NCBI GenBank assembly: GCA_021234155.1
Contig: JAJEKV010000290.1
Coordinates: forward strand, 62,001-126,000
DNA from: Isoetes taiwanensis
Lineage: Eukaryota; Streptophyta; Lycopodiopsida; Isoetales; Isoetaceae
DNA: 64,000 nucleotides
Reading direction: 5' to 3'
A program made the position numbers and the translations under genes. Of the stretch, positions 2,493 to 44,196 are shown in pieces. Under the pieces are notes generated by a model. The model was not told where the DNA came from, ran no database searches, and saw only the letters and a list, made by a program, of their open reading frames with translations. Every line of letters starts with the position of its first letter. The stretch's first letter is position 1.

Positions 2493-2503
2493 TTCCTCCT
2501 TTA
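2493..2503 (-). other. Polypurine tract of the copia element
   Basis: TTCCTCCTTTA on the + strand is a purine run on the minus strand. It directly abuts the 3' LTR, where plus-strand DNA synthesis is primed in LTR elements. It fixes the inner LTR edge. Confidence 0.8.
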
Positions 2504-2552
2504 TCATATATGTTGATGATCAGAGAAGAACTTCAACCTACTGTCCAAATGT

Positions 2553-4195: not shown

Positions 4196-4448
4196 GCCAT
4201 ATGCACTTGTGTCAATTCCAGCTTCTTCCAGAAGTTTCTCTGCTTGAGTCTTTCTATTACCTTCAGTGTTTCCTTTCTCAGTGTTGATATTATTAGGCCC
4301 CTCAATCTGAGCTTATTTTTTGCTGTCATTTTGTTCCTCATCAGTATCATAGTCTGTTGTCTGTGTTCTTTGTTTAGAACTATTGTCTTTCCTCTCCTTT
4401 GGTAAATCTATTTTGTAAATATTCCTGTCTTTGTATAGCACTTCTTCC

Positions 4449-5408: not shown

Positions 5409-5445
5409 GCTTTTGAATCAAAAGTGATTCTGTAGCCTAGATCTA

Positions 5446-5940: not shown

Positions 5941-6617
5941 TTGCTTTTATAATGGCCTGATTCTTGACAGTGAAAGCATGCCCCTTTTTCATTTCTTCTT
6001 TTTCCAGCAAACAATATTTCTGATGCTTCAGCATCTTCTCCTTTTGTCATTTTCCTTTGCTCAGCCTCTGTTCTTAAAATATTCTCTGCTTCTTCTCTAG
6101 TTTTGGCCATGTTTCTAATGAACATGGCCAGTTGTTCATTTTCCCCTATAGATCTAGCAATTGCAAGCACTTGATACCTTTCAGTCAGATTAACACCAGC
6201 TCCACTAAGGTCAGCTACTATATTGTCAAAGGTATTGAAAAATTTAGAAACATCTTTGTCTTCTGTCAGCTTAAGATTTCTCAGTTCATTTTCTAGAAGA
6301 TCTATTTGAGATGAACTCTTCTCTTCATAATGTTTGAGCAAAAAATTCCATATCTCTCTAGGACTCATGTTTCTCAATTTTAATCTAATAGTAGGACTAA
6401 CCTTGCATGTGATAATCCCTTGAGCCTCCTTTGTCCTGGCATAAATTGATCTTCCACTGCTCACAGCAAGGGAAGTCCCCCCAGAGGTTGTGCTGCCTGA
6501 GCTTCCAGAGCCTGCAGCCACAGCATAAGATTGGGTAGCACCACCGCCTGTAGCAGACCTTGCAGGTGTGCTACTTTCTGCACCAGTTTGAGCATAAGCT
6601 CCTTCATTTGGATCCAC
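5895..6617 (-). pseudogene. Copia gag (UBN2-type) with zinc knuckle
   Basis: A 240-codon frame. The middle holds the gag fold seen in copia elements, with IWNFLLKHYEEKSSSQIDLL and LRNLKLTEDKDVSKFFNTFD. It ends with a CCHC zinc knuckle, CFHCQESGHYKSNCP. A Ser/Gly/Ala/Thr-rich linker near residues 10-50 is unusual but low in information. Protein-like sequence (LEIEELWDLVDPNE) continues upstream of the first Met, and the frame is lost by about 6650, so the true N-terminus was longer and is damaged. Role: particle shell and RNA binding. Confidence 0.9.
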
Positions 6618-6746
6618 CAGATCCCATAATTCTTCTATCTCTAGAATGTGTTTAACAGCATCCTTTCAAACTTGAAATCCAGGTCCCCTTTGTAGACCTC
6701 TACTGTGCTGAGCAGATTTGCTCCAAATCTACTAGCTATTATTCCT

Positions 6747-6758
6747 GCTCTGATACCA
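6747..6758 (-). other. Primer binding site (initiator Met tRNA type)
   Basis: TGGTATCAGAGC on the minus strand, two bases inside the 5' LTR end, matches the usual copia primer site complementary to the 3' end of tRNA-iMet. It confirms orientation and LTR edge. Confidence 0.9.
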
Positions 6759-6760
6759 AA

Positions 6761-6942
6761 TGTTAGAATTTGATTCAACTTCAATTCAATCAATACTTTA
6801 TCTTCAATTTATCCCTTGACAATAAAACAAACCAAATGAAATTTCAAAGGTTCCTTCAACCTTAACTTCCAATAGTTCTAATGTATTCAAATCATAATGC
6901 AATGAAATACAACTGGTTTCTCGCGAACAACTTCTTTGGGTC
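6761..6942 (-). repeat. 5' LTR of the copia element, truncated
   Basis: Matches the first 182 bp of the LTR at 1952 with few differences. The match stops after CTTCTTTGGGTC. The expected remaining ~360 bp, including the promoter, are absent, so this copy has lost its 5' control region. Confidence 0.9.
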
Positions 6943-7032
6943 ATCAATGCCCTTCCAGAATTTGAATTTTGTCAATCATCTCTGCAGATCAAAGTAGAAG
7001 CGCAGTCATGGATTTAATTGCACTAATCTAGC

Positions 7033-7355
7033 GGGTAAAAGCATGTTAGGGTGTACCACTTTTGGAACCTGCAAAAGTACATACACTAGGTACTTCAGAA
7101 CTGGGTACTTTCTCATTTTTCTTTTCATTAAAACTAATACAAAAATCCAAAATAAAAGTCAAGGACATGGTAATATTCAAAGTTAAGATAAAGATAATGC
7201 TATCGGAGACCAATATATATATATAAAAAGTGCTAAACATACCTTATATTGAGATATTATACAGGTACCCAGTACCCAGTCCTGGCTACCTTTTTAGGTA
7301 CCTTTTTGGTCACTAAATAATACTTTTTAAGGGACACCCTAACATGCTTTTACCC
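7033..7355. mobile_element. MITE with GGGTAAAAGCATG termini
   Basis: A 323-bp segment bounded by a perfect 22-bp inverted repeat starting GGGTAAAAGCATGTTAGGGT and flanked by the 4-bp direct repeat TAGC (7029-7032 and 7356-7359). There is no coding capacity. The interior is AT-rich with several GGTACC/GGGTACTT motifs. The termini match those of the 13.4-kb element at 27845-41218 and the MITE at 35969-36233, so it is probably mobilised in trans by that family. Confidence 0.85.
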
Positions 7356-7359
7356 TAGC

Positions 7360-8247
7360 ATCCTAATCTGCACATAAAAAACATAAAATGAAATAAAATA
7401 GAGACGAACAACAACAAGAGTTCTTTTTTCTTAGGGCGAAGGTTTTATACCGGTGGGATAAATATGAAGATAGAAGAAAGGGGAAATAATGGCCCTAAAT
7501 GAAAAGTAAAGAACAGACAAAGATAAACAAATACCTAATGATCTGGGCGGGGTCTGTCAGGATCGATAGCCGAGGTTCAGAGAATGAGGCTTGAAGCTGG
7601 TTTGTAACTGTGCCAGAAATATGACGACCAGCAATGGCTTATGCACCTGTGTACTGGCAGAGGCAAGAGAAAAACGCTGACCCTATCTGTGGAACTGGGC
7701 TTTTTGAAGCAGAAAATACAAGCCACACAAGTAAAATAGGGCGACAGCCGGGAAAGATGGACATGAATTCGTAATTTTTTGGTGGAAGAATTGCAGTGGA
7801 TGTGGCCGGAAGAGAACAGGTTCGTTTGTTTCGGCCATTTCGAGAAGAGCAGTTACCTTATTTGCAGGACCACGTCACAATAAAGCGTCCCTCGGCCTGC
7901 CTTTGAAAAAAAAAAAAAAAAAAAAGGAGGGGAGTTAACTAATTTTACATCTAACAGCACGCAACAAAAGTTGTGAAACACAAGAAATCAACGGTCGAGA
8001 TGCTCTACACAAACTATCATTTTTTGCTTTTATTACTATATATAGATAATTGCTATAAATAAAACTTATATTAGTCCCTTCTTTAAAAAGGGAATATTCA
8101 GGGAATATTCTTGGAAACCATTCCTCAAGAATCAGTTTTCAGATGTAAACCTTCTCCAGTAATTTGATTCTCAGATGCAAACCAATAACTAAATGTTGGT
8201 AGTCTCTGCAATCCAATCAACCCAATGGGTTGCAATTTTGCTCCCTG
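7360..8247. other. Gene-free stretch
   Basis: No convincing open frame. It contains a run of about 20 A at ~7905-7925 followed by GGAGGGG, and HSE-like GAATATTC motifs near 8092-8110. Nothing else is recognised. Confidence 0.5.
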
Positions 8248-8550
8248 GCGAGCCCCATTCTAGAATTCATTCTCAATGTTTCCAAAAAGTAGAGGGATGG
8301 TAATCTTTTTTTGTCGTCCAACCATTTATAGTATTTGACACAAGCAATATGTTACAACTTCATCTTCATCTCATTCCCTTCTTGATTTGGCACAATGAAT
8401 GCGTTGTGATGTAGATATTGAATCTAGCCATGGATCTGGTTGCTCTTTCTTATAATTGAGGGCAGTGGTAGAAGAAAAGAATAAGCTAATCAATCAAATA
8501 ATCAAATGCAAAATGCAGTTTATGCATTAAATGATAAGTAATATATGTGG
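8248..8550 (+). repeat. Segmental duplication B, left block (copy 1)
   Basis: Nearly identical to 15640-15936, from GCGAGCCCCATTC to ATATATGTGG. No protein pattern. In the other copy this block is joined directly to sequence matching 10412-10708, so about 1.86 kb is extra here or was lost there. Confidence 0.85.
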
Positions 8551-10411
8551 ATATAGGATTTCCTTGTTGTTGGATCATGTGGAGCATCCTATATATATTA
8601 TAATGTTTTGTTGTGTGTCTGTCGTGCATCGAGCCCTAGATCGGGTGGCCCACGTTGATTGCCTTTTGAACGAACGGCCAAGATCAGTCCAAAAGAAGAA
8701 AGGAAAAGAGGGCTTAAGGGTTTTACTCCGAATCGAATTCCGGGCTTATAGCAGCAGGTTTTGGCATCGGCTATGGTGATCAGAGCTTGTGTTTGGGATC
8801 CTTGTGATCTCTATGGGTCTTAGCATGCCAATAGCTTATGGCTCGGCATGTACGGAAGAAGCTAAAATGGCCAGAGATGTTAGCAACGATCGTCATCTCG
8901 CTTTCTCATTTTCATTTGTCTCTGAAAACACATAGATGCAGGGTTAGAAGAATTGTTCTTTTGCAATATAAGGCAAGTCAAGAAGGAAAGGAGTTTTTCC
9001 ACATATTTGTTCTCTAAAGATGTTTTTGCCTTCTTGAATCTTTCAATCTAGATTCGAATCTTCCTTCCATTCTGAACCATGTTATTGGTGTTTGCAGCTT
9101 CTAACGTGGATGCCTGGTGGTTGGAGCTTCTTAGTCTGGATCTTAAGGCAGATCTCTGATAAGATATTTGCAGATAGTGCTTTATACTCCAGAAGGTTAT
9201 TATATTAACGATTTCTCTTTTTCCAGCCTTAAATAGGAGTAGAAGGGTAAGAGATGTGATTGCATTAGGCAGGATTGATTCAGGTAATTCTGGACGATTG
9301 CTACAGAGCGAGAACTCTTCTGTAGAGGTTAATCCATGGATGCCCATGCTCTTGAGTATGGATGCAGTGCTCAGAATAGGGAGCACTAAACTGGTGAGTA
9401 TCCTTGCTCAAATCTCCATAACCAATGTCTTTCTTTGAGAAGAACTAAAGGTTAATAGGGTTGTTTGTTTGTAGGAAAATTCCTTGACAGAAGTACAGAA
9501 AATGCAAGCGCATTGTTTTGAAGCAAATGCAAGTAAGACCGAAAAAATATAGAATCTGCACCATTTTTCTTTTCTTCTGCTCATTTCCATCATAAACGAC
9601 ATCATGAAGGCAGGTTTGTCTGCTCTCAAAGTGTTCATGTTTCTTTTACACTATAGTACGGATCAATTTGAAGCATCTAAACAAATATTTATCTGCTTGA
9701 ATCCTTAAGCTATTAAAGAAAGTGCCTACTTTTTCCTGCATTGCAGAAATCAAATTGAAAGCATTTAGAATATGTACCTTTCCATGTGCCTAAGATTGAC
9801 AGAAATTTGGTTTATTTGTATGTTGTCAGGGCAATGCCTTAAAATAAAGGACTGGCGATGGAGGCATTCACAGCGTCCATCTGTTCGACCAGCAAATTCG
9901 CGTTCAAAATAACAAGCTCGTGAGTAAAGCCAACGACAATTGCGTTTTAAATTTGAAATTGAATATCAAATACATGGGTAATTTGCCCACTCAATAACAA
10001 TATATATTATTTTTTTTGTTTGCAATAATAACGAATGTGGATCAAGAAGTTTGCACCTCAAGGGTTGATTGAATGCTTCTTTTTTTGCCTTTGCATATTC
10101 CAAATAGCTGTGATTATATGTGATTATGGGCAGTCCATGCTTGAAGCTGAAAGGACTGTTATGGATCTCTTATTGAATAAAGACAGATGGTCTATGGTAC
10201 ATTTAGCGCAAGAGCTCTACATGTATAGCAGTTTGAGTATACATAGATAAATAAAGACATGTCTTTAACTCAAACTGCTAAAGTTTGAGTTATAGATAGA
10301 TAAATAATAAAGACAAAATGAGAGAGCTAATTGTGCAGAAAGTCGATTGTGCTGGCTTTCATTAATAGCTTCCCAGCCTATGCCCAGCAAAGCTGGGCAC
10401 CGTAACTAGTG
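8551..10411 (+). other. Unassigned 1.86-kb segment with exon-like pieces
   Basis: This segment is absent from the related copy at 15.9 kb. Some short + strand frames look coding and end at splice-like sites. One at ~9230-9391 (VRDVIALGRIDSGNSGRLL..) is followed by GTGAGT. One at ~9475-9533 (ENSLTEVQKMQAHC) is preceded by TTTGTAG and followed by GTAAG. One at ~10105-10225 (GQSMLEAERTVMDLLLNKDR) follows CAAATAG. I do not recognise the protein, and no continuous gene can be assembled. A 12-bp inverted repeat (AGCAGTTTGAGT) forms a possible hairpin near 10228-10280. Confidence 0.35.
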
Positions 10412-27310: not shown

Positions 27311-27840
27311 AAGTGATTTTTGGGAAGGATCTTATCTGAAAGCCTTGATATTCATGTACTTACCATGACTATAAGTGTGTTCTGTCCTGTTTCAGCATCT
27401 GAGAAACATGCTCTAAATTCAATTTTTCATCAAAATTTTTTTTATCGTAGGCGACCAAATCTCTTTATTGATTTAAATGGGTATTTTCTGTTCTATTTTA
27501 AGTAAGCAGCAACATATTTTATCATTCGAAATTGGTAATTTTGCCAGCTTCCAAAGTGTGTTTTGTCGACATATTGCTTTATCCTCCTCAGAATAAAGAC
27601 CGGGTTTTGATCTTTACATTAACATGCTTTATAATATTCACTTAGAGTCCCGATCCAGCATTTGCAACATAGGCCTTGCCTGTCTCAGCATTCATTTTCA
27701 TGTTTGCCCAATTGATTCTCTTCGTAGAGCTGTAGATCTTGTTGCTTGGTAGTCTCCCATGCTCTTACAACTTTCACTTCCTTTTAATTATGATTCACTA
27801 TCATTTGTACAGGTAGAAGCATGTGAAAGCATCTTTGAGT
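27311..27840. other. Gene-free stretch before the large TIR element
   Basis: No gene. At 27812-27833 a partial copy of the element terminus (GGTAGAAGCATGTGAAAGCA) lies just outside the true left end, which could be part of the target or a remnant of an earlier insertion. Confidence 0.5.
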
Positions 27841-27844
27841 CCTT

Positions 27845-27865
27845 GGGTAGAAGCATGAAAGGGTG
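27845..27865 (+). repeat. Left terminal inverted repeat
   Basis: GGGTAGAAGCATGAAAGGGT plus one more base (G), the exact complement of 41198-41218. It is preceded by CCTT. Confidence 0.88.
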
Positions 27866-28297
27866 ATTGAATTTTTTTGTATATTGATGTAAAAATTTGA
27901 ACTGGGTTAAAGTGTTTGTAATGTACATTTTGAATTTTACATGGAGTTGCCTATCATTAATAAAGGCGGTTGACGTACAATATTCTCCATAATTATACCA
28001 AATCCTCCCGAAATCTTGTACTAGCTTCTCTATCAATAAAATCTAAATATCTTGCCTGCTTGAAAAAAAAAAAAAACTTTGGCACATTTTGAACTTTCCT
28101 CAATCGATCAAACATGGCTCAGTTCTACCTCAACGAAAACTTGGCCCGAATCGATTATAGTTGCTCCTAAATCGAATGCATTTCAAGAAATAAATGTATC
28201 TTGAAGAAATTGAAATCCCTTTCCTTCAAGCAAGAATACAAATCCCTTCAAGCGATAATACAAATCTGGTTAATAATCTGATTTTTGTGCGGGCACG

Positions 28298-31200
28298 TTG
28301 TATCCCCTTTCTGCAGAATGGATCGATGTCTTAAAGCACCCGTTGAAGAAGAAACTATGGAAGAAGGATTGGACTCTCATGCAAGCACGAGGTCAAGATC
28401 GGGTTGATTTCAATCCTCACGTTGATGAAGTTTTAGGAAAGCAATTTTACAAGTGGCAAAGAAAATCAAAGCGAGAGGGTTTGTAGGGGTGGATACATTG
28501 ACAAAGCCAATTAGAAGAAAGGTGAATATACGTAAATCTCATAATGAATGAGGTATCTAATTTGACTCCAAAGCAGAAAAGTATATTTGCAAGAAGATTA
28601 TTGCGGGACAAAAGATTGCAATTCCTATTTGATCCAGTCATTGGAAGGCCTCAAGAGGCTATCATGAAAAGCAGTCTGGTAAAGAATTTAAAGGATGGCC
28701 TCCAAGGCGTCAAAAATGCAAATAGCAATGACGGACTTTGCTTGCAAAGCATTACGTACACTATCTATGGTGGTTGGAGAGGAAGGAGAATTACGTAAGA
28801 CTTCATCCTAGAAATATGAAACTAGCAAATGGGAGAGAAGGAAAAGAATGTCACTAGGTGGAACAAATCGTGGGCATTAGCGGTCGAAATTCAAGAACAA
28901 ATCTGATAGATCGGGCTATGAAGGATATGGTTGCTTTCGATTTTGGTTAGATAACTCAAAGGTTTCATCAAAAATTAGAGATGTCATGAAGAAGAGGACA
29001 CAACCAATTCAATATATTGATATTACACAATGCATTTGTAATTTAGTTTGTAATTGTATCTTGTTTTTGAATAAAGATGTTTTTTTATTTTGTAACAATG
29101 ATGTAAAGTTTGTAGATTTCTTTACTTTTGGCCAGAATAAAGATGTCTTTTATTTTGTAATGCTTGATGTAAAGTTTGTAAATGATTTCTTTACTTTTTG
29201 AATGTAATGTAGATGCGATCTGCCCTAGTTGTTCTACATGGAAATGTCAAATTATTTCATGGCAACACGTACATGTATATTTGTTTACATGTATATTCGG
29301 ATGTATATTTGTTTTACATGTATATTACGGATGTATTGTAGATGTAGGCAAGAACTAAGAAGAAATTAGTGTGGAGATGTATTAATTGTCAAAAATTATG
29401 TGACTTCATAGTAAATGAAATAAAATTCATGTCGGAGAATGTACATGTATGTGTGTGGGAGTTTAGGGTCTTGAATATGTAAAAGATTTGTATGTAATGT
29501 AATGTAATGAGGTGACTAATTTTATTTCAATTTGTAATTTTACAGTGAATTATTCAATTTTGTGGATCAGTATCGAGAGGAGGATTGGGCTTAGGCAATT
29601 TGAATACTTAAAACCTTCTTGCATTAGAAAGCTAAAGGAAAGAAACACATGTTGCGTGAAACATGAGCAATCGATCCGTCTGTACCTGGCATTTAATTTG
29701 ATGAGGTCAAGACTCCATGAAAATTGTTAAATTGCAATTGTGGTGTGTAAAGATCCGAAGCTCATCTTTGGAATATGTCAAGCCAAGGACAAGACATTTG
29801 ATAATGCTAGCACATTTTGGAGGGCTATGGTATGTGAAAGCAAAGAAAGAAAACGAGTGGCATAAGCTATAATGTATCAAATCGATTGTGGAAATTGTGG
29901 GAAACAATTAATTGAGTTGTGTCCAAGAGAATACAAGGAGCAGATTGATCAAGCGCTTGATTGGCAAGTCTATGGTTACGTTAATGGGCCCTCGAAGAAA
30001 GGAACTTCCGCGAAGACTAAAGCTAATTGACAAGAAAAGCGACTCGATAATATGTTGAATAACATGTTTGATCATATGTCGAAGTTTGTATATCATAACT
30101 TTGTGGCACATTGGCGAGCAAACAATTCAAGGAATCCATGAAGAGTCTTATTGATGATGAGTATTATCGGTTGTTGATTTCTCGAAGAATTATACTTTGA
30201 AGCCATTCAACGAGATTCAAGCACAACATTGGTACAATGAACAAATCAGCATATTGGTCCACATCCACGATGTTCAAGGTAGTGGGTAAAATGAGGAAAT
30301 GTGTGCACTTCTTTATTTCAGATGACAAAACACATGATACTCACTTTGTACAAAAAGCATTCAAGATGCACCTCAATTGGCTGAAAGAAAATGGTCTTTG
30401 GTCATATGAAATACCACTTAGTTTGGTCTCGACGGGTGTGTACCCAATTCAAGTCGAGAAGAGCTTTCTATCATGTAACTAGGTATCATCAAGAGCATAA
30501 GATCGAGAATGCTTTGGAATTTCTTTGGCTCGGGACATGGGAAGGACACACATGGCGGAGAAGGAGCCATAGCCAAACTATGGCTCGAGGCGAAAAAAAG
30601 AAAAAAGGATGGGAAAGTGATAAAAAAATGCAGAAAAATTGGGGGTTTGGGGGTAATCAATATTTGAGAAAGGGGATCGCTCTAGCGCCAAGTACTTCCA
30701 TAAGGCTGCCTACAATAAGATTAAACACTCTCGCCGCCATCATAATGCGGAACTATCTTAAAAGTGCCTTTCCTATGGATGGAGGAAGCTTAACCTTATT
30801 ACGCCCCATGCTATCTATTTTCCCTTCTCCATTAAATTCTATTCCAGGGCTGATTAAGAAATGGATTAGAGCATGGAACTTGGTTAAAGGTATGTTCTCA
30901 TGGAAGGAGGGGCTTTCCATGGATCAATCGATCTTTTGGAACCCTGCCTTACTTACTAACGACTCATCCCTCTGTTTAGCTTGTCATTTTCCAGAACAGG
31001 CAAGACTTTGGAGCTGCAAAGGTCTAAACAATATTAGTGATTTGTATGATGATCAGGGAATCATCCCCTTCAGAAATTCAGTTCTAGCAGGAGAGGATGC
31101 TAATACTGAGATGCTCTATAATAATATTTGTATTGCTCTAAACAGGGGGAGATGGTCTCAAGGCAATCTTAACTGGACTCACAATGGTTCAGAGAGTTTC

Positions 31201-32870
31201 TGTGGTAATCTTTCGACCTATAAGTATTTGATGAGGGATCAAAAGATGACTATTCACATCAAATGGCAGTTAGAGGAAGAAAGGTGCAAAAGAAATCTGA
31301 AATTCTTGTGGTCCAGCCCTATTCCCCCTAAGATTAAATCTTTTATATAAACTTTGGCACAAAGCCTTAGCAACCAATGCTAAAAGACACATTGTTGCAC
31401 ATGGCCAGATGGATCCGGGCCCTAGATGTCCGGGACACAAAGAAGATGAGGAACATCTGTTTTAGATCTTGCATCCTAAAGGAATGGATACCGAGCTTGC
31501 CTCCACTATCTTCGGGTTATGACACCCGAACTCCATGGCTTAAGTAGACTTCTTCATTCCAAATTACCCTGTGGACTGGAGACTCTACATCCTTTTGTGG
31601 AGGATTTGGAAAGGCGTAAAACACTTTCATTTTTAAGCGTGACATTACTCACCCGAGGCGGTCATTCTTGCGATTGAATACGACATCAAGTGGATCAATT
31701 TGCTATTCAAAGTTCTTTTGAATTTCCCATGAATCTCACAATATCCTTGTGGTTATTACAGAATTATTTTTTCGTCTTTGGTCGCGCAAACTTAAAATGG
31801 AAGAAGATTGATCCCGGTTAATCAACAATGGCTTATGGTATTCGCCCACCGGATCTTTTCGCAACCGCGAGGAGCCTTGTCTATGTAATTGTTGTGCTTT
31901 CCGAGCTATGATGCAAGAAGAGGCCCTTTTATGTGAGGCAAAAGGACAACAAAGGCCGGTTCAATATGGCTATGGCGAATCTTGCCTTTAGCATTCTGCA
32001 CACTCGATCATGGTTAGGGAGAGGAAGAAAATCGATTAATCGAATCTCAAATCTCACTTTTTAGGTAAGGTGTGTTATATCTCATCGGCGGCTACATATA
32101 TCCACATCCGAGCCTTAAGTATTTTATTATCATACTCTATCTCCTTTTTAGGAGTTTTCTTGGAGTTATACTTCCCCAAAAAAGTACCTTTTGTAACACT
32201 ATAATCTATAATTAATATACATATCGCCTTCAATCAAAAAAAAAAGATAAAAAAAACCTGGATGTGAAGTTCTTGAAGAGAAAATTTCTCGATGTGGAAA
32301 GGGTATTTTGGAAGGTGTCCGACATTGACCGATTCCCAAAGATTTGATGTGCTCGGTGAAAGGGGTGCAATCTCTTCATTGCTTTTATCATCCATAGATC
32401 CAAATGATCCAACAAAGTTAATGTGTAGATCTCTTTCATGTTTTGTAAGGCATGCATCAATTTTGATTGACCCGCTTGTGAGAATGTCGATCATTGTGGG
32501 CAGGTGGGAGTTGAGAAAACTAGAGCCTACAAACAGGGACAATGTTGAAGAAGATGGGTAATGAGGCGAGAGAGGACTTGTGGGCAAATGGCGTGGACAA
32601 TGTGGATGAGACAAAGGGTTGGAGATTATTTTGCATCATTCACATCCCCGGACAATTATGAAAGGGTCCCTTATTATCTCATCCAAGGTACGAAGTGAAA
32701 CATGCCCTCGAAGAAGACACCAAGGATGACTATGGAAATGAATTTTATTGTGGTAATGAAGTTATAGCTGGTAACTACTTTGAATTGATTCACGGTTGCC
32801 ATCAAAAAGCATGAGGGCTTATTCAAGGAAAGAAAGTTCTTATCCATCCCGAGTCATGAATTGGGGTGAG
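28298..32870 (+). pseudogene. DDE-like transposase of an unnamed family, interrupted by a LINE
   Basis: Protein-like segments appear in order on the + strand in shifting frames: SNLTPKQKSIFARRLLRDKR (~28553), LRQFEYLKPSCIRKLKERNT (~29585), CGNCGKQLIELCP (~29890), FVYHNFVAHW (~30088), VVDFSKNYTLKPFNEIQAQH (~30171), FFISDDKTHDTHFVQKAF (~30310), TQFKSRRAFYHVTRYH (~30440) and GSGHGKDTHGGEGAIAK (~30533). After the LINE come RVFWKVSDIDRFP (~32301), VKGVQSLHCFYHP (~32358), RSLSCF (~32430) and DDYGNEFYCGNEVIAGNY (~32728). I recall this motif order from uncharacterised plant and animal proteins. The Asp-bearing blocks suggest an RNase H-fold DDE transposase; that is inference. At least five frame breaks and stops plus the LINE make it non-functional. 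Confidence 0.62.
30629..32245 (+). mobile_element. 5'-truncated LINE insertion
   Basis: The 3' part of a LINE ORF2. About 230 codons to 31350 contain TIRLNTLAAIIMRNYLKSAF and PIPPKIKSFI. In another frame KLWHKALATNAKRHIVAHGQ follows, then CPGHKEDEEHLF, the zinc-binding zf-RVT region after the reverse transcriptase. The insertion ends in an A-rich tail (~32235-32245). It is flanked by a target duplication GATAAAAAAA (30619-30628 and 32246-32255), typical of target-primed insertion at an A-rich site. It sits inside the transposase gene, between the GHGK block and the FW block, so it arrived later. Confidence 0.85.
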
Positions 32871-34004
32871 ATTTCCATTTTTGATCAAACATAAGATTAA
32901 AGGTACATCTTATGCATATGAACTGACTAACTATTGGCATGAAATGTTTTTGGGAAATTTGCGGAGATTGTAGAATCTCATGTCGATAACTTTGTTGTTG
33001 AAGTACTTTTCTATGCACTAAGGCATGGACTTGCAAACCTAGAATGTAATCGAATGTGAACCAGATTAAAACACAAACATTAATATATTGTTTATATAGT
33101 TCCAAGATCTGTTATACTTAGTGTAAGTTGTAAAAAACACTGTAAGCTGAAGGTCTCAAGATTCAAGATTCAAGACTCAAGATTCATCCAGAAGGTCCTG
33201 CAGTGTGAGATCAGCAATGGTCCTGTTCCCGAAAATTGTGAGAAGAGTGTCGGGGCCGGTTGTTTTGGAAGTTGGTGAAGTCTAACGAAGCAAGACATGT
33301 GCTTCTCATACATTTGCCATTTATGATAGATATTGGTAAAGTATGGTTTGAGGCTATTGAATCTCCAAACCTCAGCCCTTTTCAGCACTTTGTTGATTGC
33401 TTTTGCATGCACAACTTCTGTTTAAGTTGAATGAGAATACTCTCTAGTTCTGCTTTAGATAATTGGGATTCCTCATCCCCCTTGTCCGCTGCTACTCCCA
33501 TAGCTCGATCCATGCTTCCAACATTGTTAAGTCTCCTTTGTGCATCTGTGTAGAACATCATAAGCAATTGTTAGATTAGGAACAAAAGCATGTTTAAGAA
33601 TAGGAGTACCTCTGAACTCGTATTTGCCTCTCGTTTGATTTTGTTCAATTAGTTTCCCTGTAAGGCATTGATCTCCTCAAGAATCGGGTGCGCCGGGTGA
33701 GTTTGCATTTGAATTGGGGATATGGATTGTGATCTAGTCGTTCGATCTCCTCCCGCCGGAATCTACCGGTCACCACGGGTAAAAAGGAATTTTTATCCTG
33801 TCTATTCCCTTCTCCCCATTTTTTACGATATGGCTCGTACCATGCCAATGATTTGTTCCTTAACCAATGATTTGTGCCAATGATTTGTTCAACATCATTT
33901 TCTCAAAATCTATCCCTTTGTCCTCTTTTTTTGACCCAATTGGCCAATGGTTGATCTTTGGCATATATCCCACAAGCCTAGCTCAAATGAAAGGGCTATA
34001 CTCA
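32871..34004. other. Gene-free interior of the large element
   Basis: No recognisable protein. Two minus-strand frames near 33567-33170 (61 and 80 codons, with ESQLSKAELESILIQLKQKL) look weakly coding but match nothing I know. Confidence 0.4.
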
Positions 34005-34325
34005 ATGTGGAATATTCCTTTCAATGTAATAAGGAATATTCCTTGTAACTATGGGTGCACTTAAACAAACTAAAGAATATTCCTTTGAAGGTAATAAGGA
34101 ATATTCTTGATAACTAAACACTAAGGAATATTCCTTTCAATGCAAAAGGAATATTCATTTCAAGGTAATAGGAATATTCCTTGTAACTATGGGTGCACTT
34201 AAACAAACTAAAGAATATTCCTTTGAAGGTAATAAGGAATATTCGATAACTAGGCTAAGGAATATTCCTTTCAATGCAATAAGGAATATTCCTTTCAAAA
34301 TAATAAGGAATATTCCTTGTTATCT
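34005..34325. repeat. Minisatellite of palindromic GGAATATTCC units
   Basis: About twelve copies of AAGGAATATTCCTT-like palindromes spaced 18-50 bp apart, with a larger ~134-bp period (ACTATGGGTGCACTTAAACA occurs twice). Each GGAATATTCC fits the heat-shock-element core nGAAnnTTCn. No coding. Confidence 0.85.
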
Positions 34326-35854
34326 CTATATTATTGTTGACTCACGCTTTACCAAACACAATATGCATAGGTACACAATATGCCTTAACATAATCCATTC
34401 ATTTGGCATTTGTTGATTTGGCAATTGTTGATTTGGTAACATGTGGAACATTGAATGCATGTGGGATATTTGAGCCCATTACTAAAAAAAAAGGTGGACT
34501 AGGATTAAATCTTGGACAGTTATGACACGCTGGCCTGTAACTGAAGATTACAAGCCAGTGAGCCATAACAATGAAGCAGTAAAACCCTATTTATATATGC
34601 GCACGATTTTTGTGATATATGCATGTGGGATATTGCTAACTTTGTGTTCGGGTTGTGCTAACTGCATACCAAGCAATTGGTCTCATAATATGGTTCAACC
34701 TATACATTTTACATTTGCAAAAATATTGAGGTGGGTGGATCGGCTTCCGAGGTGTGAAATCGTATGCATGGATACATCCCTTTCCTCTTCTGCCTAATTC
34801 CCAAAACAAAATCGTATGCATGCAAACATCCCTTTTATTCCCAAAATTCGCCTGCTGACTTCATTCCGTCCCCATCGTCTATTCCGCCATCTCCTTCCTC
34901 CTTCCCCATTCCGTCCATCTCCTTCACTTCCGCCATGGCCAAGTTCAAGACCACACTCTGCGGGGAACACTATCCCGGCCATTGTGCCTGCTCCTCCCCC
35001 CTTGAAAGACGGTCCTCCTCTTCCTCCGGAGGATCCAGGTGTCTTCCTCAGGAGAATCCGTGTCTTCCTCCGGAGGCCACCCGATTCTGATCGGATGAAG
35101 TTCACTCCACGGAGGTGGAGAAGCTCATCATGGATCATCGGTGTCCTTCGTTGCGGTGTGATCGAGTGGGTGCATGAGGCTTACCTCGGCGAGGGCGACT
35201 CCTCGAAATGAAGATATATGCCATGGAGGGCGACCTTCATATAGAGTGAAGATGGCACGAAGATCAAGTCTTGTTTTTTGTAATCCACGGTTTCAATTTT
35301 TTGGTAATAGTCCTTGTGACTATTCTTTGTAAAAGCTTTTAATTAAATCTGAAGCAATAGTCCTTGTGACTCCATTTTTGTAAAGCTTTTTCATTAATGA
35401 TGAACTCCTCTTCTCTACAAATTGTTGTGACTATTTTTTTGCTTTAAGCTGTTCTCTGAGTTTTCCTTTGTTCTTTTAGTTAAGCGAACTATTTCTATCC
35501 TTTCTCGTATAGATATAAGAAACATGTTTGGTACTTAGTTTGCAACTCAAGTTTTTGGTGCAACTCAAGTTAATGGCCGGTTTTTGTCATTAATTATAAA
35601 ATGCAAAGTACAATTCTTGAAATAGTATACCAAAACAAACATTAAAGCCAACAAAGGAATTTCAAGGTGCGAGAATTTATGATCGCACACTAACAAAATA
35701 TGGTAACCGGTGACCAATAGGAAAATATGTTGAGTATTTTTCTTTAAATGCATCTTGAAGCATCTGAAGCATCGCCAAAAATTTTTCGGATGTTGGTCGA
35801 AACCTCTTGAACAATACCATACCATCGTATGGAAATGAACACTAAAGCTGTTAG
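34326..35854. other. Mostly non-coding; GC-rich island at 34850-35215
   Basis: A local GC- and CpG-rich block contains open frames on both strands (108, 114 and 131 codons), rich in Pro, Ser and Arg. One + frame begins at an ATG near 34935 (MAKFKTTLCGEHYPGHC). The overlap of frames on both strands and lack of any known domain argue against a confident gene call. It could be a captured host exon or CpG-rich promoter fragment. Confidence 0.35.
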
Positions 35855-36700
35855 GGTGTGTATACCACACCAAACCATGCACCATACCATGCCCCACACT
35901 ATCATATTCACGGAAGCGAGCACATCCCACCACACACCACACCATTCACCACACCCCCCACCACACTTGGGTAAAAGCATGAAAGGGTGTAATGCACGAC
36001 ATTATCTTGAATTGATGTACAAATATGGATACTTCTCATGTACATTTTGGTTATTTTTTATTTGTATAAACATACACTTTTCGATTTTATGTACTTTGCA
36101 TATACATTTAAGCTAAATTTCGGATATGTTTTGGCTATGCATGTACTTTTTGGGTACTTTGGGTGATTTGTGTAATATAGCCACATGTACCAAAAGGGAT
36201 ACATTTATAGACACCCTTTCATGCTTTTACCCCACTACACCATTCACCACACACCATACACCATAGACCATACACCAACTATCATATTCACCAGAACGAG
36301 CACATCCCACCACACACCACACCATTCACCACACACCCTACCACACACCACACCACACACCACACACCCCACCACACACCACACCATTCACCACACACCA
36401 TAGACCATACACCAACTATCATATTCACGGAGCAGGCACATCCCACCACACACCACACCATTCACCACACTCCCCACCACATACCACACCATTCACCACA
36501 CACCATACACCATACACCAAATGGTGGAGTGTGGAGCGGTGGTGGAGTGTGGTGGTGGGGGGTGGTGGTGTGGTGTGTGGTGGTGGGTGGTGGTGGTGGT
36601 GTGTGTAGTGGTGTGTGGTGGTATGATGTGGTGTGGTGGAGTGTGGTGGGGTGTGGTGGTGTGGATTGTGGTGTGGTGTTGTGGGGTGTGGTGTGGTACA
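35855..36700. repeat. Strand-switching CACCA / GGTGT satellite
   Basis: From ~35865 to 36520 the + strand is built of CACACCATTCACCACACACC-like units and nearly lacks G; an ~85-90-bp higher-order unit recurs containing ACTATCATATTCACSGA and GCACATCCCACCACAC. From ~36522 to 36698 the pattern flips to GGTGTGGTGGTGTG on the same strand. The two halves are inverse complements and could form a very large imperfect hairpin. A MITE (35969-36233) is inserted in the left half. The long frames across it (for example Thr/Pro/His-rich ones) are artefacts of the repeat. Confidence 0.9.
35969..36233. mobile_element. MITE nested in the satellite
   Basis: 265 bp with termini GGGTAAAAGCATGAAAGGGT and its complement. 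The flanks read CACTT on the left and CACTA on the right, an imperfect or one-base-offset 4-bp duplication (CACT). Non-coding, AT-rich. The termini differ from those of the 13.4-kb host element by one base (A for G at position 6), so it is a near relative that inserted into it. Confidence 0.85.
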
Positions 36701-36945
36701 AGGTCACAAAATATATCAGTCGAAACAATCAAGTAACTGTTTTGATTGACCAAAAAGGGTACAAGGCTTCTTTAAATCAGAAATCTTTTTTCTTCAAAAA
36801 AAAAAACTTACATAGTCATAAAGTATACTATCAGTAGTATACTATTCAGCATAGTGTCATTTACACATTCCTTATGATAGGAAATGTGAACACAAATGTG
36901 AACAAAAGATATATATAAGCCTGTTACATAGTTCATCTTGCAAAA

Positions 36946-37676
36946 TCAGATACTCAGACTCATGATCAGCTCAGAAATCAGAGGACTGCTGGCTGATACG
37001 TCCTTTCGGATTGGCATCACAATGCATGACCAAAGCATCTATTAGAAATTGTCGTCGTGTGTGGTAGTATTCATGAGAGAACCATTTAGATGTAATCTGT
37101 GACATCCATAAATAAGGTTAGAAATATTTAAAGGAACATGAGATGCAGTACATACAAGGGAAGGCATACAACTTACTTCCATATCTCTACCATACCAAGA
37201 GCTTCAACATATTTGTGCATAAATCCCATCACATACAACCCACATGATGTTAAATCGGGCTGATGTGGCACCTCTACTTGCTGAATCCGATTAACATTAT
37301 TTCTCTTCATGAAATCGACGCCTCTAGATACTTGACCGATCGATGTGGTTAACATTTGTGTGTGCAGCCTACATATCACGAAATTTAGCAGACCGAATTA
37401 GCGAAGAAAAGCAAAGCAACAACTTAAAGTTATAAAGTATTACATACCCTTTGATTGCTTTTCGTTAAATTAGCATAACTTTGTAAGAGGATTCAAGGCG
37501 TGAATTCTGGTGCGGGTAGGATCTTGGAATCGATGATGATGCGGCGTAAAACAGCCCGGCACAAAATGGTCATTCTCAAGGATAGGTGCAAGGATATGAT
37601 GGCATTTAGCTACCACAATCCCCTTCATCCCTGATTTCACTATTTCAATGACATTCGGTGATCCTTGGTGATTCAC
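36946..37676 (-). CDS. Ulp1-type (C48) cysteine protease domain, C-terminal exons
   Basis: Minus strand, at least three exons. One (about 37700-37470) contains VVAKCHHILAPILENDHFVP, where the His of NDHF fits the catalytic His. The next (about 37379-37177) contains RIQQVEVPHQPDLTSCGLYV, with the catalytic Cys in SCGLYV and a Gln six residues before it, as in Ulp1/SENP proteases. A GTAAGT donor follows, and the last exon (37096-36946, after an AG acceptor) can read SKWFSHEYYHTRRQFL to a stop, although the phase at this junction is off by one as read. These enzymes remove SUMO from proteins in the nucleus. Plant transposons (some Mutator-like and other elements) are known to carry captured Ulp1 genes. 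The catalytic Asp is not clear. Confidence 0.72.
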
Positions 37677-38026
37677 CCTTTCTTTTTGCTGCTGGTAGCT
37701 TCTCTAAACCTTATATAGTTGTAAGCGGGATAAAAAAGATTTTGCTCTTCCACTCGAAGGCAATGTCTCATACAAGCACTGGATTAGATTAAGATTAACA
37801 TTAGAGACAAGGAATAGCAACAAATATTTTCGGTTACAACCGGGGTTATTACCTACCATAAAGATCCACTAGCGGCTACTCATTTTAGAGTTAGTTGCAC
37901 ATAAAATTGCTATGTCGGATGCAACCACTTTCATTTTGCTTGTGAGGGACGGTTCTTGAATGGCATGAATGGCGTGAATTCCATAAGTTTATCCTTGTCA
38001 TCATTTCTGTTGTCAGATCCAAGATG

Positions 38027-38285
38027 TTAGTGTCATATTAACAATTGATCCATGACAATAAAGCATAAATTGATACCTTCAATCTCTGTTTCCGATGGTT
38101 TAGACACGCAAAACGAGTAGAATATAATAAACTCTTTGAAGTATAAGTAAGTCAATGTTAGTGTCATATTAACAATTGATCCATGACAATAAAGCATAAA
38201 TTGATACCTTCAATCTGTTTCCAGTGGTTTAGACCTGCAAAACGAGTAAAATATAATAAGCTACTGAAGTATAAGTAAGTCAATG
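38027..38285. repeat. ~131-bp tandem duplication in an intron-like region
   Basis: GTTAGTGTCATATTAACAAT through AGTAAGTCAAT occurs twice in succession (about 38027-38157 and 38158-38285) with a few differences. It lies between putative exons of the Ulp1 gene. Confidence 0.9.
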
Positions 38286-38289
38286 TAAG

Positions 38290-39115
38290 CTAGCAATTAC
38301 CGTTTTGCAGCGGATGTCCCTGCTCTGGTTTGCACTCTCTTTTTTCCAGCTGTTTTGGCATCAGCTTTGACCATAAATTTAGTCGTTGCCTTGGCTGCAA
38401 TCTCCAAGGCTTCTTCAACATCATCTAGCTCCTTTGAATCGTCGCAAGTCTCTGAAGACAAGAAAGTGCTTCATTCTAATGTTTTGAAAGCAAGACAAAA
38501 AAAGAAACACGTACCTGCCAAAGAACAAGCCTTTTCCTCAACTTGAAAAACAGCAGCTTCAGGACTGTTTTCAATGTCGTCACCAACATCTTCAGTAATT
38601 TTATCTGTAAACACGTCAACGTAAGTTTCAAAATACAAAAAAAATAGAAACCACGAAAAGGAGAGAGAATTACTTTACGGGCTTTCGCTAGTTGCTCAAT
38701 AATAGCGGCTTCGGCTTCAGCAGGTGGGATCTCTTTTTGGAAAACAACCTCTCTTTGCAAAATATTGAACATAAGTGGACTCTAACTACAACAGATGCAA
38801 TCTTAATGTAATCAGAATGTAATCACCCTACCTTCCACATACCCCTCTGTCTCCAAATCCTGCACTGATTGCTTATGAGTTGGTGCAATTCTCAAAGGTG
38901 ATGTAGATGTGGATGGACTTCCAACATCGATAGCAGCAGCATCTTTTGTGCCAGGTTCAGCAATTGGGATGTCTGAGAATGGTAAATGCAACCCCTTCTC
39001 AATAACATTCTTCTTTTCACCTACAACATGAAATTTTGCTATATTCAGAACTTAAGCATAGTGCACGAAACATGAATTGTTTAGTTTACCTGCACTACCC
39101 ATGTCTGCATTGACA
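38290..39115 (-). CDS. Middle exons of the Ulp1-domain gene
   Basis: Several short minus-strand frames join at canonical splice sites. A piece ending at ~38832 (..KQSVQDLETEGYVE) has a GTAGGG donor. KEIPPAEAEAAIIEQLAKAR ends near 38675 at GTAATT. A piece at ~38608-38518 (EDVGDDIENSPEAAVFQVEE) lies between TTTACAG and GTACGT. A piece at ~38460-38304 (ELDDVEEALEIAAKATTKFM, then a basic AGKKRVQTRAG) lies between CTTCAG and GTAATT. Acidic, low-complexity linker with a basic patch, as often seen between a transposon-borne N-terminal region and a Ulp1 domain. No domain recognised. That they belong to one gene is inferred from splice sites and direction. Confidence 0.5.
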
Positions 39116-39755
39116 CAATTGGGTGTCAATAAGATATGTAAACACTTGATTCAGAATCAAGGGGAGATGTAGAGTAGATAGAAGCAAAATCTGAAGAAAA
39201 AACAATCAGATGCAAATCAAAACAGAACAAATGTTAATTACATGCAAGTAGGTTTTTACTACAGGCAAACTTTCTGCTGATAATGTAACGACAAAATAGA
39301 AGTACATTAGTGTACATAGCTATCACAATGTAAAGGAAAACCAAATACTAAATTCAAATGTATTTCAGAACAAAATATTTTATCAATACACCCTATCAAA
39401 TACATCATTCAGCATTGAATGTAAAGGAAAGTCAAATACCAAATTCATATGCATTTCTGATCACATGTAAATGCAAAGTACAGTCAATGCAATACACCCT
39501 ATTAATACACCCTGTAAAGGAATTCCAGAAAAGCACTTCGTGGCACATGTAAATGTAAAAGTACAGAAGCAAATACATTTCCTCTTTACTGGTAAAAAAC
39601 AAAACCACGCCAAATCAAATGTTAATCTGAGTTATGTACATGATGGAAACTAACTACATCTAAGTACCTCAAACTAATTATGTAATCAAAATAGAAATAG
39701 ATGTACCTTGGAAGGGATTCCTAAGCAAAGGTCGCGGGTCCCGGACCATGAACAA
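39116..39755. other. Intron-like AT-rich region with degenerate repeats
   Basis: A phrase AATGTAAAGGAAARYCAAAT plus AAATTCAWATGYATTTC recurs around 39332 and 39418, and ATACACCCTATYAA occurs twice (39387, 39491). No coding potential. It separates the N-terminal frame from the middle exons of the minus-strand gene. Confidence 0.5.
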
Positions 39756-40857
39756 TCATGTACACATGTATTCGTCGTTGAAACCACGAATATAAGACAA
39801 AATAGACAATATGTATGACCAAAGTGGAGATATTACCATGGTCGAGTCAAGGCAATCATTGCAGCTGCTGCAAGTATTGCTTATATGTGAGAATGAAGCG
39901 CTCCGTCTTGCTGCGAGTATGGGAGCGGGCTGCAGGCCTATCGGGTCTGATCTTTCCAAATGCTTAGTCATCTCCTTTATTCTATTCTCACAGTTGGAAT
40001 TAACTTCCAAATCCTTGCTGATTTTTTCAATGGCAGCTTCTAATTCTTGCAAATCAGCCTTTAAACAATCAATGGGAATCATTAGAGCATCTAAGTCAGC
40101 AATATAACTTGATTTCTCCTCCTCTAAATGGGATGCCAAAGCCATTTGCACATCAGTTGGCTTCCCGCTTGCTTTTAAACCTGCCATAATGCTGAACTGC
40201 TCACATATTTTTGCATCTTTACTCTGCACAAGTCTTGTCAAAAAGCTCTTATCACTCTCATGCTTCAACAGTTCAATTTCCATTGTTTTCCTTTTCTCTT
40301 TTAAAGTCTGTATTTCATCAAGCATGGAGGCAGAATCTAATGCTCTTGTTTCCCTCCACCTTTTCATCATTTCCAACTGCTGCCCCAATTCTACCTGAGG
40401 CATACATTTAATAGCTTTAACATTGGAAGACTTTACTGTAGCTAATTCTGTCAGGTCAGATTCTTTTTGAGAGCCTTTTGAAAGAAGACTTGCACTTGCT
40501 TTCACCTCATCCCAATCAATGCTTATTCCTTTGTAATGAAGTGCATATGCTCGGGCAAAATACAATAGAATATGATGATTTGCAATGTCCCTCCTACAAA
40601 AAACGTGCTCATACACAGAAAAAAAATCTGCCATCCAACCAGGCTTAATCCTGCACTCTTGATAACCCCTAATAGCAGGGGCTTCAGAACCCCAAACATC
40701 TTGCACTATTTGCACTAGCCCTGGAAACATGCTATCAAAATTGTTGCTCCTAGCCGCTTTGATGCTTACCTTGTCAAACTTGGGTGGCAAGACCTCCGAT
40801 CTGAAGAAGACCCACTCTTGAGTTTTCGGGCGGGAGTTCTAGTGGGAGAACTTGGCA
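39756..40857 (-). CDS. N-terminal coiled-coil part of the transposon gene
   Basis: An open frame of about 344 codons (to 39756) beginning in-frame from about 40790, where the apparent first codon is TTG. ATGs upstream in other frames include one at ~40857 that reads a basic Ser/Pro-rich start (MPSSPTRTPARKLKSGSSSD) and would need a frame change. The first ~120 residues (GLVQIVQDVWGSEAPAIRGY, GWMADFFSVYEHVFCRRDIA, YFARAYALHYKGISIDWDEV) are well structured. Residues ~150-270 are heptad-rich coiled coil (LDEIQTLKEKRKTMEIELLK, LQELEAAIEKISKDLE). I do not recognise a family. It is the best-preserved frame in the large element and probably joins the Ulp1 exons downstream. The last ~40 codons may run into an intron. 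Confidence 0.6.
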
Positions 40858-40996
40858 TGGGCTTTACAGGTTTGTTGCGAGGAGATTTCCTTGGAGATGT
40901 CTTTGTTCCAAAGCTGTTTCGTCATGATCTCTTCCCCAGTGCTTCTCTCACGAAAAATGCAAGCTTTTGTCTATGGAGGTCCTGATCTTGGCTATG

Positions 40997-41070
40997 GAGG
41001 TTCGAATATGGATGTCAAGCTTTCGGCTATGGAGGTTCGAATATGGATGTCAAGCTTTCGGCTGAACAGA
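40997..41070. repeat. 35-38-bp tandem duplication
   Basis: CTATGGAGGTTCGAATATGG followed by ATGTCAAGCTTTCGG occurs twice, back to back, with a third partial copy just before. It lies in the 5' leader region of the minus-strand gene. Confidence 0.9.
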
Positions 41071-41197
41071 GCGCGGGAGGAGAGTTCAAAATTATTTGCC
41101 CTATTAATGATTCATTCCAAGAATAATAATTTCTGGGGGGGAGGGATTTCCTTACATTTTGAATTTGTAAATGTAAAATACGGGCACTTTTTTTGCC

Positions 41198-41218
41198 CAC
41201 CCTTTCATGCTTCTACCC
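41198..41218 (-). repeat. Right terminal inverted repeat
   Basis: Exact complement of 27845-27865, followed by CCTT. About 45 bp inside, sequence related to the left subterminal region (ACATTTTGAATTT) is present in inverted form. Confidence 0.88.
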
Positions 41219-41222
41219 CCTT

Positions 41223-44196
41223 GTAGAGCTTCATTTATTGGATATGCTCAAAGTTACAGGTTATAGGCTGACTAAGTGAACCAAATTGATGATTATGGCC
41301 ATGAGGCAGTGGAAAATGCAAAGATATTTACTTGCCATGATGAAAAAGAAGCGATCATTGCTTGATGAGCTAGGTGAGGTAAACTACAGTGCACCAATCG
41401 TCGAATCAAGTTGTTTCTTATTTGCGTTCTTGTGATACTGTAGAGTATTAGAAAGTTTAGAAAGTTCCTTATCATGCTTGTGCATATTTTACAGGATGCT
41501 TAGCCCAACCAAGGTTATAGAAAGTTTAGTTCAAGAATATTTTACAGAATACTCAGGCCAACCAAGATTATAGCAAGTTTAGTTCAAGAACGCAGGGATC
41601 ATTAAGTCTTTGGAATCCTGATAGTCTTGGATCTGATAGAGGCTACATTGCTTTATATATGCAAAAATGGGAAAGGAAGAGCCATATTAATTTTCATAAT
41701 TGGCTGGGAAGATGAGCCATTTTAGTTCACAACTGAAACGGCAACCATTATACAGAGATCCTCAAAAAGTTCAGTTGCCTGGATGCCATGGATCAATGAC
41801 TACTGCAGATCGGGTTCACTACACATGCCTTAAACTTGTCTTGCATGAAATTCCGAGAGATGATAAATACAAGATCATAAAGAAGAATGCTAAAGCCATG
41901 TAAATGAGGCTCTGTTAGCAGCTAAGACTAGAAGAATGCTGAAGCCATGTAAATGATACTCTGATAGTAGATCCATCACTTCGACAATAAACTTACACCA
42001 TCGTTCGGCAACAGAGTTTCAACTTTGTTAATAAACTATGGTGTGAGATTGCTACTTTGACCTTGTTGTCATTTGGACCTTTGGCATGAATGAAGTCAAA
42101 TATTTTCAAGGATTCTATGACTGATCTTGGGTTGATTATTTTGTTGCTCGTATAATTTTATTAAAGATTGATTTCGTGAAAGCAGAATAACAAAAAGTCA
42201 AAAGGCTCAAGAAAGGTCCAAAAGTGCATCTTTTCCACATGCATTTCTATTGGTGAACAAAACTTGTACGTCTACGTTTTTCGGACGCAACTATGATTTC
42301 ATAAGCAGCTAGGCTCATTTGTAAGGCTAGCAAAAGATATCGACAACATCTTTGATACTGCATATTTTACGGGATGCTGGGGCCAACCATGGCTATAGCA
42401 AATTTAATTCAAGAATGCAGGAATCGTTAAACTGTTGAAATCCTAATAGTCAAAACAGAGTTTGCCAGAACAGAGCCAAAACAGAGTTTGTCGGACAATA
42501 ATTCTTAGAATATTCTTAAAAAGGGAATATTCAGAAGATTATGACAATAATTCTTGGAATATTTTATGGAAACGAATATTCGGGACATTCTGTGATATAA
42601 CCACTATTAGATCCAACGGTGGAGGACATTCTGTGATATAACCACTATTAGATCCAACGGTGGAGGACGGTCGGATTCAAATAACTTGCAAAGGCATTTG
42701 GTTAAGGATAAAACTGTCTTTTCAGTTTACGTGACAAAGAAGCAAAAAGAAACTGTCTTTTCAGTTTTCTTGGGATGAAAGATACCAAAAAAAGAAGCAA
42801 CGGTTGGAACAGCCTGAAGCCTCTAATCTCATGGGAATTTGGGATGAAAATCTTGAAGATATGGGGACTGCACCGGATGGTTAGCATGGTAGAGATGAGC
42901 GTTTGAATCAGCAAATGCATGTGGTCTAGTAGGATTCAGATACCACTGATGGGTTTGCTTCTGAGCCTGTAGTCAAGAAGACCAAGAACCTTGAAGATTT
43001 GTACAGCCATGAGGTTGAGCAACACTTGATAAGCTTGGGAATATAAGGCAACTTCACTTGCATAGTTTAGCTTTCAGTTTACATGATCTCAACTTCAATT
43101 TTGTATAAGAGTTCACTTTTATTAATCAATGAATGTATAATGTTGCTCTTTTGTTAATTCATGCTAGCCCATAAGTAAAGATTGCAGATATTTTGAAGTC
43201 TTATCTAAATTTCTAGACATTTTGGTAATTAACTCTCTTGATTATGGCATGGTATTGTGTTTGTACCTTGAGGTGAATTTACGGCAATAGCTCTTGGATC
43301 TTTTTGTCATTAATCCAACTAAGGGCATGAGTTGCACTGAGTTGAATGCAGGCTGTACCATTTGAGAGCACAAGGTAAACTATCTGCAGTGCAAGCTGCA
43401 CCATTGGAGTTCTTGCATGTGCCATTTGTGGACTGTTGTGAACCATAGTTAGTAGTGCCATGTTGGGCATGGGTATACCAACAAGGGCCAAAAGGTACCT
43501 CTGGTCCATTGCATAATTCAGGTAGCTATTTATTTTGTTCTTTCTTTTTTCTCATTAATCGTATCAGGTTCTGGTGCATGAGTTGATCTGACAGGAATGT
43601 CTGGTAACAGACACTCCTGTAACCTGAAAAATAGTTAGTTGTTGTTCTGGGTTTGGAATGCAGGGTAAATGAGCAGAATGTGCTGTAATCTAGTAGAATG
43701 TAAGGTAAGTTCTTGAAGAGTCGAGTAGGAGATCTGTCGGCGAAGCTTGCTGCAATTCCGGCTTTGAAGATCTGCCACATGGCATGATCAGATATAACTA
43801 GTTTTTACATGAACAGAGGGTTTTTCCCTTTTAAGTGTTCCAAAATCGGGCACCTTCCTTTAGAACCAGTTCACATGGAGTGAAGGTGCTATCACCATCG
43901 TGTAAAATGGCTCACCCTTTTACAGAGACCATCACCAATAAGCACATGGCAAAACAGGGCCCCTCTCCCCTCTCCTCGATGGTTTCATGTGAACCGGCTC
44001 TTAGGTCATTATTATACAACTATTAGAAACGAAGGGTCAGTTTTGTCCATGGAGAGCTTTGGGCCAGTTTGACCAACATTATTGGTGTACGAATGAGATA
44101 TAGGAATTCGTGATTCCATTCCCGAATTGGTGAACTGAAAAGAGAATTTGAATGTTTGATCAATTTCTAGATCTCCTTGATTTTGATGAGGAGGAT
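41223..44196. other. Gene-free stretch with dispersed repeats
   Basis: A ~75-bp phrase (CAACCAAGRTTATAG, AGTTCAAGAA) recurs at ~41510, ~41565 and ~42385. A short coding-like tail reads DGFASEPVVKKTKNLEDLYS and HEVEQHLISLGI to a stop at ~43043 (+), unrecognised. Another + frame at 41700-41903 (67 codons) has no family I know. Nothing can be called a gene. Confidence 0.45.
42484..42716. repeat. Dispersed repeat with HSE-like motifs, copy 1
   Basis: Direct repeat of 47270-47481, from GAACAGAGCCAAAACAGAG to AGTTAAGGATAAAACTG. This copy has an extra 45-bp tandem duplication (GGACATTCTGTGATATAACC occurs twice). It contains four or five GAATATTC/GAACATTC-like sites. Confidence 0.88.

Follow-up and report, generated by a model that had tools for sequence, protein, structure and literature searches.

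Sola elements are DNA transposons with a DDD (three-aspartate) transposase, a 4-bp target-site duplication (TSD), terminal inverted repeats (TIRs) of 11-1124 bp and lengths of 2-9 kb, with some above 15 kb; they are present in Physcomitrella and uncommon in flowering plants (PMC10741241). The pairing of a DDD transposase with a 4-bp TSD is also tabulated for them in PMC9033089, and members have been reported from moss, amoebae, a choanoflagellate and a brown alga. Among Mutator-like elements (MULEs), KIU genes with a Ulp1 domain have been linked to methylation loss and escape from silencing, the function of the domain being given as unknown (PMC13317346). Here we describe a 13,374-bp transposon at positions 27845-41218 of a 64,000-nucleotide stretch of the lycophyte Isoetes taiwanensis (contig JAJEKV010000290.1, positions 62,001 to 126,000), which we call the window. 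We regard it as probably an old, inactivated two-gene cut-and-paste DNA transposon, with the Sola superfamily as its most likely home. A first-pass annotation, made from the letters of the window alone, had seen in it a TIR transposon with two convergent genes and possibly an undescribed superfamily; our analysis supports that interpretation in part.

The element is bounded by perfectly inverted 21-bp termini (GGGTAGAAGCATGAAAGGGTG), on the plus strand at 27845-27865 on the transposase side and on the minus strand at 41198-41218 on the Ulp1 side. CCTT stands directly before the left terminus (27841-27844) and directly after the right one (41219-41222), so that the termini and flanks reported in the first-pass annotation are exact. 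The ends read GGGTA, and the element overall GGG...CCC. The pre-insertion site, which that annotation had proposed as a check, was found on contig C26 (locus L042): the flanks of the element (window 27681-27844 and 41223-42722) are duplicated there, 93% identical over 1,675 columns across the insertion point, and CCTT is present once. Duplication of four bases is also the rule elsewhere in the genome. Among 32 pairs of ends with the exact end motif at both ends, all within fetched loci, the flanking 4-mers are identical in 28, and no pair matches at 5 bp. Unpaired ends do not enter this count, nor do L041 (one end mismatched, flanks different) and L043 (an end mismatched, flanks GTAT/GTAT matching). 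The 28 matching duplications differ in sequence, C at position 3 being mildly preferred (15 of them). Apart from this, the flank of the window element holds, 34 bp from the insertion, the string AGGTAGAAGCATG, one mismatch off the element end.

Full-length relatives of the element exist elsewhere in the assembly. A copy on contig C8, 11,105 bp long and flanked by AGCA on both sides, is colinear with the window copy from end to end, at 88-91% identity over the main blocks. The window copy has in addition a 1,645-bp stretch within the transposase gene (30627-32271), a 513-bp stretch downstream of the transposase remnants (33130-33642) and a nested 264-bp miniature inverted-repeat transposable element (MITE) with ends of the family A type (35969-36232); further smaller differences lie in a simple-repeat region. 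On contig C17, two ends separated by 29,906 bp have the flanks AACT/AACT. The possibility that each end of the window element has a short partner of its own, named beforehand as grounds for giving up the single-element view, was thus pursued and did not overturn it. A related family A is represented by three further full-length copies, L009, L011 and L012, of 9,247, 9,244 and 9,273 bp with TSDs ATCA, TCAT and TGCC; identity is about 90-91% among the three and, where they can be aligned, 64-72% with family B. Across the 9.2-, 11.1- and 13.4-kb elements the TIRs are 21-22 bp long. Locus L028 (contig C2) shows another arrangement, three element ends in the same orientation at positions 204, 4795 and 9348, with identical 15-base flanks and a spacing of about 4.6 kb, which looks like tandem multiplication of a unit carrying one end.

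The end sequences are very abundant. In the 1,658,258,908-bp assembly (1,110 contigs), GGGTARAAGCATG occurs at 4,945 exact sites (2,504 + 2,441), against 189 for the control read backwards; in the window there are six exact copies, and ten at up to two mismatches, against a mean of 3.1 and a maximum of 8 in shuffled sequences. A 13-base motif is common to the ends of MITEs and of full-length elements, and one MITE type shares further bases past it with family A. The window contains two such MITEs, as had been noted before: a separate one of 323 bp at 7033-7355, with a perfect TAGC duplication (7029-7032 and 7356-7359), and the nested one. The flanks of the latter do not match as a duplication; its site lies in a variable simple repeat, and comparison with the C8 copy likewise gives no clear duplication, so that a CACT duplication considered for it was dropped after inspection of the C8 sequence. 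The adjoining 36233-36700 is a simple-repeat array rich in CACCA/CATACA units, which differs between the window and C8. Locus L010 (contig C22, 8.9 kb, TSD ATGG) was considered as an autonomous family and rejected, being a MITE of the 320-bp type (about 262-8874) split by a pyrimidine-rich insert of about 8.6 kb; the insert ends read ACTAGTAAT...ATTACTAGT, and it is possibly another terminal-repeat element. Past activity of the family, suspected from the window alone, is borne out.

The left gene of the window element is the transposase, and it is broken, as had been reported. Remnants of exon 1 lie at 28655-29036 on the plus strand (tblastn with the first open piece of L063), and catalytic-domain pieces of exon 2, interrupted and frameshifted, at 29689-32961 on the same strand (tblastn with the open L059 exon). 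With a 126-aa piece of the C8 copy as query, a first look across the genome gave 5,565 candidates. The 150 that were scored all match, at E 8e-84 to 4e-46; in many the frame is open over 300-600 aa, and others contain stops. L059 has an open transposase exon of 562 aa; the matching TIR, its position predicted from the spacing in the window, turned up 1.86 kb upstream of this exon, and some 5 kb downstream the opposite strand has a Ulp1 match. Open transposase exons therefore exist in the genome despite the broken window copy. Among 30 fetched transposase loci, median identity is 93.8% and the maximum 98.4% over the 300 pairs whose best alignment is longer than 1.5 kb, and three comparisons of young copies with open frames gave ratios of nonsynonymous to synonymous substitution (dN/dS) of 0.07, 0.26 and 0.35. 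Among the long loci fetched by the end motif, the transposase query found no match in L010, L028, L041, L042, L043 and L044; L044 has the transposase-side end and nothing else within the 10 kb read. A variant LLISENY, in place of the usual VVDFSENY around the first catalytic aspartate, occurs in several family B copies, in four of the 30 loci (L049, the C8 copy; L052, the C17 copy; L054; L057) and in L045, either as one common lesion that spread in trans or through repeated hits.

Protein searches for relatives returned 2, 34 and 71 matches, from named sources that include the liverwort Riccia sorocarpa, Taxus chinensis, the molluscs Patella, Ostrea, Mya, Mytilus and Mercenaria, and Helicoverpa; a further record, labelled as a Sedimenticola metagenome-assembled genome, may stem from contamination. 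When the L059 exon is aligned with 70 new relatives (P0036-P0105) and seven earlier ones, three aspartates are invariant wherever a letter is present (D170 in 75/75, D254 in 78/78 and D295 in 63/63), with HGK just before D295 in 65/65, and this is a DDD pattern. Several cysteines are nearly invariant in the same alignment. A profile search of the PDB returned no transposase, its best matches (E 0.029) falling on the N-terminal stretch. In a tree of 57 rows, several of them long-branched and of unsure placement, the two Isoetes transposases pair (100/99) inside a group of 41 with full support, to which Taxus and Riccia also belong. A deep separate branch is formed by P0025, a protein of 1,019 aa in which a related transposase core is fused to a Ulp1 domain (PF02902, E 2.9e-16). 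The mollusc-type proteins P0003, P0010, P0015 and P0092 have in place of Ulp1 a long tail with an OTU-protease-like motif, recognized by eye in P0003, P0010 and P0015, for which Pfam returned nothing, and weak in P0092 from Mercenaria (20.9 bits in Pfam, cut-off 23.3); P0015 is annotated as VRTN-like.

The second gene runs on the minus strand and has the Ulp1 type of protease domain that had been claimed for it, so that the two convergent genes are both present. Its C-terminal catalytic piece (Ulp1, Peptidase_C48) lies at 37173-37397, and an upstream piece at 37470-37703, without a Pfam match of its own, has counterparts in L048 and in both family A and family B. Close to the right end, a 360-aa open piece at 39756-40838 on the same strand comprises a head region and a long stretch that looks, by eye, like a coiled coil; it is probably part of the same gene as the Ulp1 piece. 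The L048 homologue of the catalytic piece scores 27.8 bits for PF02902 and, in the region of the presumed catalytic cysteine, gives a weak alignment to Sentrin-specific protease 7 (E 0.26). In all ten transposase-bearing elements read (the window, L009, L011, L012, L013, L039/40, L045, L046, L047 and L048), a piece of the Ulp1 gene is on the strand opposite the transposase. Comparing 150 of the 5,565 transposase candidates with 150 of 878 Ulp1 candidates, which makes the count a lower bound, we found a scored Ulp1 match within 25 kb of at least 46 scored transposase matches, always on the opposite strand and in 45 cases convergent, at a median distance of 5.0 kb. When the Ulp1 matches were shifted (200 trials), the mean was 0.7 transposases with a neighbour and the maximum 4. 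Between element families, the proportion of synonymous differences (pS) is saturated in both genes, at 0.77-0.83, and that of nonsynonymous differences (pN) is lower, at 0.29-0.43, which indicates, as far as the few codons compared (31-231) allow, that selection acts on both the transposase and the Ulp1 protein. We take the Ulp1-type protease to be a conserved gene of the element and no chance passenger.

Together, these data suggest a model in which a DDD transposase would bind the 21-bp ends and excise the element, with insertion at a 4-bp staggered cut and little target preference giving rise to the 4-bp duplications. The same kind of transposase would mobilise the MITEs of about 250-340 bp in trans. 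The likely task of the Ulp1-type protease would be to strip SUMO or a comparable tag either from the transposase itself or from factors with which the host silences or repairs its DNA. By analogy, its role could possibly be anti-silencing, as for KIU, or de-SUMOylation of the transposase.

The TSD and the ends do not fit the common plant superfamilies, in agreement with the first-pass annotation. Mutator elements and MULEs have duplications of 7-12 bp and usually long TIRs, CACTA elements have CACTA/CACTG ends and duplications of 3 bp, and Tc1/Mariner elements duplicate TA (PMC10741241); here the duplication is 4 bp and the ends read GGGTA. Ginger elements have TG...CA ends and a transposase resembling Gypsy integrase (PMC10741241), whereas these elements have GGG...CCC ends, and neither the Isoetes transposase pieces nor the L059 exon gave an integrase, MULE or CACTA match in Pfam. 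Kolobok and piggyBac duplicate TTAA (PMC9587614), which is found once among the 28 matching duplications. The 4-bp length likewise sets the element apart from two further superfamilies. PIF/Harbinger duplicates 3 bp and hAT 8 bp. The 4-bp duplication, seen also at the empty site, together with a DDD transposase corresponds to Sola as published, and the lengths of 9.2 to 13.4 kb and the short TIRs agree with it, so that the undescribed superfamily first proposed is unnecessary. Sola subgroups have their own specific ends and target preferences.

Several observations weigh against this reading. The element was set against Sola by published description only, so that its filing as Sola-like is likely but not proven, and the RNase H fold of the transposase is a putative one, suggested by its motifs. 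None of the transposase models in Pfam matched, although Pfam may simply lack Sola, and the catalytic region of the relative P0026 (residues 408-492) gave a sub-threshold match to DUF7869 (20.6 bits, cut-off 26), a domain that may belong to the same transposase group. The transposase of the window copy is broken, and four of the 32 end pairs, the nested MITE among them, lack matching flanks, with at most two of the four bases in agreement and none with three. On the side of the second gene, the window Ulp1 piece scores 19.5 bits for PF02902, just under the cut-off of 20.7; family A (L009, L011, L012 and L047) matched the upstream piece only and not the catalytic one; only 46 of the 150 listed transposase matches have a listed Ulp1 match nearby, itself a lower bound; and one of the 46 pairs is on opposite strands yet not convergent.

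MITEs with these ends are abundant, two of them in the window, and the termini might therefore be two unrelated MITE ends that bracket host genes by chance. The empty site and the colinear full-length copies with duplications of their own refute such a composite, and the internal genes recur, conserved and in the same arrangement, from one element family to another; we give the idea practically no credence. A passive origin of the Ulp1 gene, as a captured host fragment without a role in transposition, has precedents, since MULE and CACTA elements of plants are reported to have captured Ulp1 domains, the exact function of which is described there as unknown (PMC13317346, PMC2528002). The constraint on the Ulp1 pieces between families, the fixed convergent layout and the fusion of Ulp1 to the transposase in the distant relative P0025 all speak against passive capture, and we consider it unlikely.

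It could also be that the elements form an undescribed DDD superfamily that works in the same way under a name of its own and shares only the 4-bp duplication and the DDD triad with Sola, by convergence. The Pfam scan of the Isoetes transposase and its relatives would fit this, since nothing was better than E 2e-4 except the Ulp1 tail of P0025 and all matches with displayed scores were under cut-off. The 13-base end motif was absent from the literature among the matches listed, where only a 10-base string matched, with no plant-transposon title. The available passages of the Sola literature do not mention a Ulp1 partner, and a text search of the available papers found none combining the Sola transposon or transposase superfamily with Ulp1. 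Yet a DDD transposase with a 4-bp TSD fits Sola as published (PMC10741241), Sola is reported from several eukaryotic groups, and the relatives found here also span plants and animals, which makes a separate superfamily rather improbable in our view. In a further version, which we find doubtful, a distinct DDD superfamily would depend for transposition on a SUMO/ubiquitin-like protease, encoded convergently here, joined to the transposase in a different lineage and, in molluscs, giving way to an OTU-like protease tail; a cut-and-paste transposon would then have been paired repeatedly with a de-conjugating enzyme.

Placement in Sola remains our preferred reading, and what is new under it is the abundance of the end sequences, the convergent Ulp1 partner and a transposase without a Pfam model above cut-off. 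On this reading, a type of transposon called uncommon in flowering plants (PMC10741241) has left thousands of end sequences in the genome of a lycophyte, and the main text of the I. taiwanensis genome paper has no word starting with Sola (PMC8566536). The tight pairing of transposase and Ulp1 gene also offers a testable case for why plant transposons keep acquiring Ulp1 proteases.

Compared with described Sola elements (Physcomitrella Sola1; Sola1, Sola2 and Sola3), the window family, likened to them by description and from a lycophyte host, is similar in its DDD transposase, 4-bp duplications, variable ends, large size and occurrence in plants and other eukaryotes; it differs in its convergent Ulp1 gene and its very many end sequences. 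Sola1-1_Ec32 of the brown alga Ectocarpus is likewise large, at 21.5 kb, and has a second gene on the strand opposite the transposase, but this gene encodes a ParB/DNA-methyltransferase protein and not Ulp1; the giant transposons of the same study also contain nested insertions, and broken transposases are described as moved in trans (PMC12477816). The KIU (Kaonashi) Vandal MULEs and CACTA-ULP elements are, like the window element, plant DNA transposons with a Ulp1 domain (PMC13317346, PMC2528002), which in the KI-MULEs is in reverse orientation to the transposase gene. Both groups have another duplication length, and CACTA another end motif as well. P0025 combines a related transposase core with Ulp1, as the window element does, but in a single fused protein instead of two convergent genes.

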